A DNA stretch of 51,756 nt from NCBI GenBank assembly GCA_002708415.1, contig PANS01000032.1:1-51756 (forward strand). Direction: 5' to 3'. Below are positions 3,345 to 7,471 of the stretch, piece by piece. Position numbers and translations under genes: made by a program. Position 1 is the first letter of the stretch. Every line of letters begins with the position of its first letter. Under the pieces are notes generated by a model. That model was not told the DNA's origin, made no database searches, and saw only the letters and a list, made by a program, of their open reading frames with translations. The DNA comes from Micavibrio sp. (GTDB lineage: Bacteria; Pseudomonadota; Alphaproteobacteria; Micavibrionales; Micavibrionaceae).

Positions 3345-3584
3345 GCTCTCCAAAACATAAAGCCGAATAGCGCTGGATAGGTTGACGCTCTCGCCACCGA
3401 CACGGGCGTCATCAAGTTTTGTGACGAGCTTATTGATTGATGTGCCTTTCTCATCGGCAATCGCTTTAAAAGCATCCCAGAAGGGTTTTTCGATGGACAC
3501 GCTGCTTGCGTGCCCAGCGATAGTTACCGAGCGTTTGACGATCGGGGCGTCAAGTATTTCTGAGAGTTCGCGTTCTTTAATCAC
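3327..3584 (-). CDS. Ribbon-helix-helix (RHH_4-type) domain protein
   Basis: [42 protein letters not shown] motif; follows and overlaps the end of fumC, as often seen in alphaproteobacteria. Confidence 0.75.
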
Positions 3585-4992
3585 GCGGCTTAATCATATC
3601 AAGTGGATTGATCCACTCGTCATATTGTTCTGCCGTTAAAAGGCCAAGATTAACGCCTTCTTCTTTTAACGTTGTACCGTTCGCGTAGGCGGTCTTGGCG
3701 ATCTTTGCGGCGTTGTCGTACCCAATATGTGGGTTTAATGCCGTAACAAGCATCAGAGAGTTTTCCATGAGCGCTGTGATACGCTTTTCATCTGCCTCGA
3801 TCCCAACAACACAGTTTTTGGTAAAGCTCACAGACGCATCCGCAATAAGTTGAATTGATTGTAGAACATTATAAATTATAACCGGTTTAAAGACGTTCAA
3901 TTCAAAATGTCCTTGCGAGCCAGCAACGGTCACAGTGGTGTGATTACCCATGACTTGCGCGCAAACCATTGTCAGCGCTTCACACTGTGTCGGGTTTACT
4001 TTACCAGGCATGATTGATGAGCCGGGCTCGTTCGCAGGAAGGATGATCTCACCAATACCTGAACGTGGGCCAGAGCCAAGCAAGCGAATGTCATTGGCGA
4101 TCTTCATCAGAGAGGCGGCAAGCACGTTCATTGCGCCAGAAATTTCAATCATTGCATCATGAGCGGCGAGGGCTTCGAATTTATTATCGGCGGTTTCAAA
4201 ATCAAGGCCAGTAATCTCTGAGACAGTTTTCGCAAACTCAACGTCAAAACCAGCTTTACAGTTAATCCCAGTCCCTACGGCTGTTCCACCTTGGGCAAGC
4301 TGCATAAGGCGCGGCATGCAGGCTTCAATACGGGCGAGGCCATATTCGATTTGCTTGGCGTAGCCAGAGAACTCTTGACCTAATGTGAGCGGCGTTGCGT
4401 CCTGAAGGTGTGTACGGCCATTCTTGACGATTTTAGAGAATGCTTGCGCCTTGGTATCAAGCGCGCTGTGAAGCTCCTCTAACGCTGGCATAAGCGCGTG
4501 ATGAACTTGTTCGGCTGCAGCAATATGCATGACCGTCGGGAAGGTATCATTCGATGATTGTCCCATATTTACATGATCGTTGGGGTGAATCGGCTCTTTA
4601 CCGCCGCGTGTCCCCGTAAGAACTTCGTTCGCACGACCCGCAATCACTTCATTAGCGTTCATGTTACTTTGTGTACCAGAACCCGTTTGCCAAACGCTAA
4701 GCGGGAACTGATCTTTGAGCGTACCATCAATCACTTCATCGGCGGCATTGACGAGCGGCGTGCCGATTTTCGCATCCATAATGCCGAGCGCCATGTTTGA
4801 CAGAGCGGCAGCCTTCTTTTGAATCCCTAATGCACGCACGAGGGCGGCCGGCATCTTTTCTGTACCAATATTAAAGTTCTGTAAGCTACGTTGTGTCTGT
4901 GCGCCATAATAGGTATCTAAAGGTACTTCAACTTCACCAAGTGAGTCTGTTTCGATACGTACTTCTTGTTCTTTAGCGGCGGTTTTAGTCAT
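3577..4992 (-). CDS. fumC: Class II fumarate hydratase
   Basis: [16 protein letters not shown] signature; [15 protein letters not shown]; 471 aa full length. Confidence 0.97.
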
Positions 4993-5177
4993 GTTTCCCT
5001 CTGGAATCTCTAAGTTATGATGGGGTTAGATTATAGATTGGCGTGCAGGAGTCTAGAGAGATTTTTGTTGACATAATGCTGAATGTTAGCTATTTCCATA
5101 CTATGTTTAAAAATATTAAAAGATTAAAGTGCTTACCAGGCTTTTTGGGCGATATAGTCTATAAAACAAGGACTAAA

Positions 5178-6401
5178 ATGGTTGTGACTGTTTTAGATGA
5201 AACAGTTGTAGTAAATGACTATATTCCAGCTATTCAAGATGAAATAAGAGAGTATAGGCAATCGAAAGCGATGGGTAATAATATGGGAAGCCATTTTAAT
5301 CCATCAGCCAATCCAATTATATTGAAGAGTGAAGACCTTGGTGACTTATCAAATGCTGAGGTTACAGATGCGCTAGACCATAAATTAGTAAGCATTCTTG
5401 AAATGAGCGGTGATCAACCCATTTTAATTGTATGCGACAGTAAGAATTCTTTTGCTTATATTTCAGAACGTTTAGGCGTGGGCCGCAGAGAGCAAATAAG
5501 CCTAGCAGAAGATGTTGTGGCTACTACTAAATCTATAGGAGACGCGCATAAGGTTATTGATGAGATTAAAGGTGGGAAAGCAACGTTTATTAGTATCCCT
5601 CATCCGGATGCAGATAAAAAAATGTATGAGCATTTTGATTTAGTTTGCGATTTAATCTATAAAGCTAAAAAATTTCAGTGTGGTCGCTTAACGCTTGATC
5701 AACATCATTCTATTCCCCCAGAAATAGCTCTAAGAAACTTACGCCTTCCTTACGAAACCTGTTTTTTTGAATTTGAAATTGAAGTTCTGACACATGAGAA
5801 CCCTCTTCTTCCTCAAAGGATGAAAGCGTATATGGTGGCAACAACACAGGATGTTAATGGCGTTGATACATATTCAGCATATCATTTTATACGAAAAAAT
5901 AATGGGAAACTCTCTTTAGAGGACAGTTTTATGCACTGGCATTATGATGAGAGGGGGATTCCTGTTTTTGGCGTACAAAATATAACGGGAGTGTCATATT
6001 CGGAAGAAAATACACAGAGAAATGCTCAGGTCAACATGTCTCGCTTATGTTATTTGCTGCCTACTATCAATGCTTTAACAACGAAGATAGTCGCTCATGA
6101 ACCTAAAGCAAAAAGATTGCAGTACGGTTCGGGGAAGAGAGCACCTCATTTTACTTATTATTCTTATACTGAGGCTAATGTAGAGAAGGGAACCATCGTC
6201 GACCTGGGGTATGATTATGATCGATTTACGCAAGGCGTGGATAGAAAATCTCCATTGGCTCATGAACGGATAGGGCATTGGAGGCAAATGGAATCGTCTT
6301 TTTTTACTCAAGCACGTGGAAAGACAATATGGATTGCCCCAACTTTAGTCGGGCAGGCTCAAGATGGGGCGAGGGGGCGAGGGCTAAAGTTGAAAAAGTA
6401 G
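5178..6401 (+). CDS. Hypothetical protein with phage/AcrVA2-like C-terminal motif
   Basis: ORF runs 5043-6401. The best start is ATG 5178, preceded by an AGGA-like SD (aaggactaaaATG). C-terminus: LAHERIGHWRQMESSFFTQARGKTIWIAPTLVGQAQDG. Confidence 0.7.
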   Translation: MVVTVLDETVVVNDYIPAIQDEIREYRQSKAMGNNMGSHFNPSANPIILKSEDLGDLSNAEVTDALDHKLVSILEMSGDQPILIVCDSKNSFAYISERLGVGRREQISLAEDVVATTKSIGDAHKVIDEIKGGKATFISIPHPDADKKMYEHFDLVCDLIYKAKKFQCGRLTLDQHHSIPPEIALRNLRLPYETCFFEFEIEVLTHENPLLPQRMKAYMVATTQDVNGVDTYSAYHFIRKNNGKLSLEDSFMHWHYDERGIPVFGVQNITGVSYSEENTQRNAQVNMSRLCYLLPTINALTTKIVAHEPKAKRLQYGSGKRAPHFTYYSYTEANVEKGTIVDLGYDYDRFTQGVDRKSPLAHERIGHWRQMESSFFTQARGKTIWIAPTLVGQAQDGARGRGLKLKK

Positions 6402-6403
6402 TT

Positions 6404-7471
6404 TTAAAACTTCTTAATGAGCGTTACATGGCCCATTTTACGTCCCTTACGGCTTTCGGTTTTGCCGTATAGATGAATATGGGCATTATCTTGTTCCAGA
6501 TACATAGGGATATCATTTACATCATCGCCAACAAGGTTAATCATTTCGGCTTTTGCAAAGGCGTCAGTTGATCCCAAAGGTAAGCCACAAACAGCGCGCA
6601 CGTGGTTCTCAAACTGAGAGGCGTGGCACGCTTCTATTGTCCAATGACCGCTATTATGGGTGCGTGGCGCAATTTCATTAGCAATGAGTGATCCGTCTTT
6701 CATAACAAATAGCTCTAATGTGAGAACACCGACAAGCTCAATTTCTTCCGCCACTTTATACGCTAGTTTCGAAGCGCTACTTTGTATCTTTTCGCCTATG
6801 TTGGCAGGTGCTGTTGTTTTCCACAGGATGTGATTTTTATGCTCATTTATACCGATAGGGTATGTTTTTACCGTTCCTTTAATGTCGCGAGCCACAATTA
6901 CGGAAATTTCATAGTCGAAATCCATGACGCCTTCGATAACAGCCTCATCTGTTTCTAAGCTGTTCCATGACTCCATAATATTACTGTTATCTCTATGAAA
7001 TACTTGACCTTTTCCATCATAACCGAAACGCGTCGTCTTAATTATGCATTTTTGGGTCTGCCACTTTTCAAGTGTTACTTTAATGTCTTCGGGCTTATAG
7101 CAAGGCGCCCAAGGAGCTGTTTTAATGCCAATATCGTTCAAAAATTGCTTTTCTTTCAAGCGGTTCTGAGAAATTTCAAGTAATCTATGATCTGGGTATA
7201 CAGGTTTAGATTTTTGAAGAAATTCTATGGTTTTAAGTGGGATATTCTCAAATTCATAAGTTATAACATCACATTGATCGCTAAGTTCTTGTAATGCTTG
7301 CTTATCTTCATAATCAGCGCAGATAAAATTCGTGCTTATAAGGCTAGCGGGGCAGCCTTTTTCAGGGCAAAGGATAATGGTGTTGATCCCTAAACGCGCC
7401 GCAGCGAGAGCTGACATACGTCCTAATTGCCCGCCGCCTAAGATTCCAAGTGTTTGTATTTTCATCTTCAT
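6404..7471 (-). CDS. purK: 5-(carboxyamino)imidazole ribonucleotide synthase
   Basis: GILGGGQLGRMSALAAARLG start; ATP-grasp; EIAPRTHNSGHWTIEAC. Confidence 0.96.
   Translation of the reverse strand: MKMKIQTLGILGGGQLGRMSALAAARLGINTIILCPEKGCPASLISTNFICADYEDKQALQELSDQCDVITYEFENIPLKTIEFLQKSKPVYPDHRLLEISQNRLKEKQFLNDIGIKTAPWAPCYKPEDIKVTLEKWQTQKCIIKTTRFGYDGKGQVFHRDNSNIMESWNSLETDEAVIEGVMDFDYEISVIVARDIKGTVKTYPIGINEHKNHILWKTTAPANIGEKIQSSASKLAYKVAEEIELVGVLTLELFVMKDGSLIANEIAPRTHNSGHWTIEACHASQFENHVRAVCGLPLGSTDAFAKAEMINLVGDDVNDIPMYLEQDNAHIHLYGKTESRKGRKMGHVTLIKKF

Follow-up and report, generated by a model that had tools for sequence, protein, structure and literature searches.

The window, meaning the whole 51,756-nt stretch of contig PANS01000032.1 analysed here, carries between fumC and purK the plus-strand ORF 5043-6401 that an earlier note had described from the sequence alone; all the blocks quoted there were found. 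The frame is open from a GTG at 5043 (452 aa), upstream of a TTGACA at 5068. We prefer ATG 5103 (MFKN...) as the probable start, giving 432 aa, because the relatives in genomes G016 (MFKL), G006 (MFEL) and G069 (MLVEL) begin there in the alignment. The gene points away from fumC and is tail to tail with purK. As claimed, it stands alone, with no phage gene between or beside these neighbors. Its GC content is 38.7%, versus 43.2% for the window. Features of the locus are as follows.

3577..4992, minus strand: fumC, flank (ORF list, congener comparison)
5057..6403, no strand: approximate inserted segment, with flanks GAGTCTAG (5049-5056) and TTTTAAAACTTC (6402-6413)
5068..5073, plus strand: TTGACA, -35-like box (sequence)
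5103..6401, plus strand: putative AcrVA2/FinQ-like protein, 432 aa (ORF list, alignment of relatives, HMM E 1e-11)
5103..5597, plus strand: N-terminal extension, about residues 1-165 (alignment, lengths, AlphaFold secondary structure bbb-a-b-a-b-a)
5610..5663, plus strand: conserved core helix 1, KKF-type (model, profile alignment)
5742..5777, plus strand: RLPYETCFFEFE strand, opposite RLPeWcVYIE of AcrVA2/FinQ (profile alignments)
6003..6071, plus strand: long core helix, its end LPTINA at 6057-6074 (family: ...LNcsNv; model, alignments)
6135..6152, plus strand: KRAPHF block (family: R.kGKxPfF; sequence, alignment)
6261..6281, plus strand: HERIGHW, the window form of the HxRRGHxR motif (sequence, motif comparison)
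6330..6350, plus strand: WIAPTLV, terminal strand block W[IV]xxxxV (sequence, alignment)
6404..7471, minus strand: purK, flank (ORF list, congener comparison)

The hexamer that the earlier note called promoter-like is present ~30 nt before ATG 5103, but in a scan of the positions 16-18 nt 3' of it no second hexamer was acceptable, so we grade it as resembling a -35 box, short of a full promoter match.

The purK-fumC gap (window 4993-6403; L148-L155) is a cargo site in this genus. The two genes are neighbors in all eight other congeners where both could be placed. Their spacing is 97 bp in G009, 69 bp in G001 and 47 bp in G005, which are empty sites; GAGTCTAG and TTTTAAAACTTC, on either side of the window insert, nearly meet in G001. 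Instead of an empty site, G004 and G006 have a methyltransferase-like ORF (named from reading its translation), and G007, G002 and G003 have other unrelated ORFs. In G002 and G007 the 10-mer TTGACATAAT (5068-5077) likewise stands upstream of the unrelated cargo ORFs (intergenic in L151 and L155). With three different cargo genes preceded by it, this may be a resident promoter element behind which cargo is swapped.

Relatives were sought with a profile of the long-form proteins, a set of eight (seven from the order Micavibrionales, one from Microvirga). Within the order it had matches in 8 of 142 genomes, or 7 of 141 once the window's own genome is set aside, and G036 matched only at the C-terminus. 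Outside the order, a 385-genome sample of the class yielded one further genome, again with a C-terminal match alone. The relatives are very divergent (20–26% identity) and within the order are mostly lone genes at differing housekeeping sites: between murJ and ubiE in G006, by uvrB in G069, between a DNA methyltransferase gene and rnhB in G015, and between pgsA and pyrD in G016 and G115 (L031:6065-7381 and L027:6025-7221), all neighbors being named from reading their translations. G016 and G115 belong to different genera yet keep the gene at a common pgsA-pyrD site, suggesting retention after one insertion. The empty purK-fumC sites in congeners and the patchy distribution together show that the window gene is an insertion, in keeping with the domesticated or recently arrived member that the earlier note had proposed.

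Sequence comparison places the window protein in a phage/plasmid family with hundreds of members. An HMM of 75 phage and plasmid members matched it at E 1e-11 (Z=1e5), and the long-form profile aligned to that family at hhalign 99.8%. The family core runs from about residue 165 to the end of the protein, about 270 aa. The earlier note had staked its assignment to a phage/plasmid superfamily on such a profile match, and the match was found; the module it took to be C-terminal is indeed shared, but is not confined to the C-terminus, the whole ~270-aa core being common. Single-sequence searches found two relatives in 57 other genomes, a further one on a Microvirga plasmid, and a weak second plasmid match; a direct related-locus search with the window protein alone found none. 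The Microvirga protein gave access to the wider family: tblastn led to 28 plasmids, from Xanthomonas, Pseudomonas, Burkholderia, Variovorax, Acinetobacter, Agrobacterium and other hosts, and to phage Noxifer, and no fewer than 203 viral contigs also carry members. The window protein had nothing above cut-off in Pfam, NCBIfam, PHROGs or PADLOC, and the PDB searched by sequence, with the single protein or with profiles, gave no relevant match. HypF_C (E 0.006), RlmH and AAA_lid_2 were weak single-member matches below cut-offs, absent from relatives, and were set aside. A combined tree had very long branches and was used solely to see groups separate.

Some plasmid loci deserve mention in their own right. 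On protelomerase-bearing plasmids of Shinella and Agrobacterium (L010:2304-3336 and L005:7309-8375), the relative from the phage/plasmid branch comes as two annotated ORFs instead of one. Other plasmid relatives (L007:2296-3306 and L008:2296-3321) lie near mobilisation/relaxase genes, where genes that act soon after transfer are commonly found.

The AlphaFold model of the window protein has a mean pLDDT of 77 and a pTM of 0.65. Its ~165 N-terminal residues were modelled with moderate confidence as an alpha/beta domain. By alignment this extension is common to the long-form proteins of Micavibrionales and the Microvirga protein; it has no equivalent in AcrVA2 or in most phage/plasmid members, which are shorter. 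The N-terminal part was said in the earlier note to match nothing recognised, and residues ~1-165 bear this out: Pfam gave no convincing match, and an N-terminal profile against PDB sequences gave chance-level matches alone. The bbb-a-b-a-b-a order recalls an RNase H-like fold, a candidate that nothing confirmed. The branch-specific extension probably contributes to target specificity or provides an interface for a partner.

Both AcrVA2-type and phage/plasmid-type proteins end in HxRRxH...W...V. The window form of the motif, HERIGHWR, keeps both histidines and one arginine, with the second arginine replaced by isoleucine, so the intact H-x-R-[RK]-G-H-x-R, which is common in the family without strictly defining it, is absent. 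Within the long-form set both histidines occur in 7/8 proteins, HxRxxH in 5/8 and the full motif in 4/8; the four with erosion are the window protein itself and three of the seven others. With half of the set deviating, we read the window form as variation within the branch, though the partly eroded motif means that activity of the window protein may differ or be lost. Counts over 151 family members, nearly all with the motif, are biased, since most members were fetched by that motif.

Remote homology of the phage/plasmid branch to AcrVA2 and FinQ is supported by profile comparison. The two branch profiles, built on 83 and 76 sequences, aligned at hhalign 94.5% (P 8e-8 for the single comparison), colinear over about 213 columns from RLP..E to HxRRGH and W...V; reversed and column-shuffled profile controls scored 0.1–0.4%. 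Narrower long-form profiles without the phage/plasmid branch reached just 4.6–47% against AcrVA2, so the link depends on that branch. The AcrVA2 query, confirmed to be the sequence of PDB 7CI1, had tblastn matches in 58 phage and 760 plasmid records. The plasmid matches included FinQ (L037:2130-2909), at tblastn E 4e-11 and 25% identity over 85% of AcrVA2. We found no mention of FinQ and anti-CRISPR together in the literature searched, preprints being outside its scope; the link may be known elsewhere. One AcrVA2-family gene (L035:411-1454) was noted just 3' of brxL, a BREX gene, on a conjugative Thioflavicoccus plasmid.

Structure bears on the AcrVA2 likeness indirectly. In Foldseek searches of the PDB nothing convincing was found with the window model or with a phage-member model, and 7CI1 was outside the top 50 for both. 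Against BFVD the window model gave nine matches at E below 0.001, among them Dickeya phage JA13 (prob 1.00, E 1.2e-5) and RisingSun gp126 (prob 0.97, E 5.9e-5). By tblastn the latter is homologous to AcrVA2 directly (2e-7), and its own search returned JA13 (3e-8) and five Moraxella phage records; both phage proteins belong to the AcrVA2 family. The phage/plasmid HMM had no sequence match to gp126, which makes this structural bridge independent. Superposition of the window model on gp126 was loose (TM 0.19–0.23), perhaps due to domain arrangement. The AcrVA2 link suggested by the earlier note was therefore sustained by profile comparison (94.5% versus controls at or below 0.4%) and indirectly by BFVD structures, but not by direct retrieval of 7CI1. 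In its record (L043:156-1157) gp126 is annotated 'putative mycothiosynthase'; as gp126 is an AcrVA2-family protein, that label is probably wrong.

The two characterised members both reduce a rival's transcript. AcrVA2 is reported to recognise the nascent Cas12a N-terminus and to cause loss of its mRNA, by decay machinery that is unknown (PMC13131331). FinQ reportedly terminates F tra transcription at multiple sites and independently of Rho (PMC8744291). By analogy, and across very remote homology, we infer a silencing role for the window protein. The reading that we favor, with confidence evenly divided for and against, is that it is a chromosomally stranded member of a superfamily borne by mobile elements, including AcrVA2 and FinQ, which would silence one gene of a competing element. 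It would act in soluble form, recognising one particular protein during synthesis, or its transcript; recognition would lead to premature loss of that mRNA, a nascent-peptide-guided silencing, and one gene of a competing plasmid or phage would fall silent.

Several other accounts must be set against this. Despite the remote homology to AcrVA2, it is highly improbable that the protein functions as an anti-CRISPR, whether directed at Cas12a or at some other of the host's CRISPR systems. The earlier note had proposed a genome search for Cas12a: none was found in the carrier genome or among 142 genomes of the order, in a search that had no positive control and so does not prove absence. No Cas1 was detected in the carrier genome either, which is 77% complete, and G079 alone of the eight genomes with a long-form match is listed with Cas1. 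With neither protein detectable in the carrier, a Cas12a inhibitor is unlikely and the target is probably something else; moreover FinQ, AcrVA2's relative, acts on plasmid transfer genes, not on CRISPR. The note had also named presence as a conserved vertical gene throughout the order as the finding that would speak against its proposal, and the profile matched only those seven other genomes. That the gene has nothing but housekeeping neighbors might suggest an ordinary, vertically inherited housekeeping gene of the order, a practically untenable idea: the gene was not found in eight of nine congeners, the ninth (G006) has it at a different site, and the adjacency of purK and fumC without it in G009, G001 and G005 refutes this reading.

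A stranded relic, which came with a mobile element since gone and now drifts with little or no function, is doubtful yet deserves more weight. It would account for the patchy presence, the strong divergence among relatives, the canonical HxRRxH eroded in 4/8 long-form members, the lower GC of the gene and a purK-fumC site that swaps cargo between species; against it, the gene, like most relatives, has an unbroken frame, here of 432 codons, and the shared pgsA-pyrD site of G016 and G115 suggests retention over time. The protein could instead be an antiphage effector, its core a nuclease or an RNA/DNA-binding effector and its extension an infection sensor, with the infected cell killed or arrested. 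The strict His/Arg motif of members on mobile elements, the extra N-terminal domain and the position as single-gene chromosomal cargo at a site of changing content, as defence genes often are, would fit. We think it unlikely, given no PADLOC match, homologues that lie chiefly in phages and plasmids (elements that usually carry genes for counter-defence and for competition with one another), and FinQ and AcrVA2 not being described as toxic in the literature searched.

Silencing of a competing element's gene, our preferred reading, would have wider consequences. The peptide-guided mRNA loss caused by AcrVA2 has been described as the first mechanism of this type in prokaryotic defence. If FinQ and the larger family act alike, the mechanism is widespread, extends beyond anti-CRISPR and is open to classical F-plasmid genetics, and the multi-site transcription termination reported for FinQ could be re-read as translation-coupled transcript loss. 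Chromosomal copies raise the question of whether bacteria have turned the silencer against mobile elements. A bolder version, which strikes us as rather a long shot, is that AcrVA2, FinQ and hundreds of unnamed proteins form one silencer superfamily that recognises a nascent protein and destroys its mRNA, and that chromosomes of this order have captured it repeatedly, with a new N-terminal domain, to serve the host against incoming elements.

Among known systems, AcrVA2 of Moraxella bovoculi (PDB 7CI1/7CI2) would share a core with the window protein: the RLP..C..E strand, further strands, the long helix, the G..P..Y block, the HxRRGH motif and the W...V end. This likeness is seen through the joint family profile; the two proteins are too distant for pairwise detection, which fails. 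AcrVA2 has 322 aa, versus 432 aa, with an unrelated N-terminus, and it matches phrog_6160, whereas the window protein has no PHROG match, has lost the second motif arginine and is encoded on a chromosome in a host where no Cas12a was found. FinQ of IncI plasmids, which by sequence belongs to a common superfamily with AcrVA2, is a single-gene negative regulator carried by a mobile element and inhibits the fertility of F; it differs from the window protein in being plasmid-borne next to transfer genes, in having F tra as its target and in having no comparable extension. The unnamed phage/plasmid family (PxKLNKKR..GKxPFF....HASPRxHLRRGHIRRL) is closer, its core being directly homologous by HMM (E 1e-11). 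Its carriers include P. aeruginosa plasmid p1, Xanthomonas, Burkholderia, Variovorax, phage Noxifer and hundreds of IMG/VR contigs, and its members, about 240–410 aa, mostly have no extension and have HxRRGHxR intact (most were retrieved by that motif). Their usual setting is a phage or plasmid, unlike the lone window gene between fumC and purK. WP_203447255.1 of Microvirga sp. VF16 is a nearly full-length relative, with 25.8% identity that takes in the N-terminal region; its gene lies on a 731-kb plasmid just after repA/repB, and its motif is HMRKGHVR. What sets the window protein apart is the combination of N-terminal extension, chromosomal location and eroded motif.
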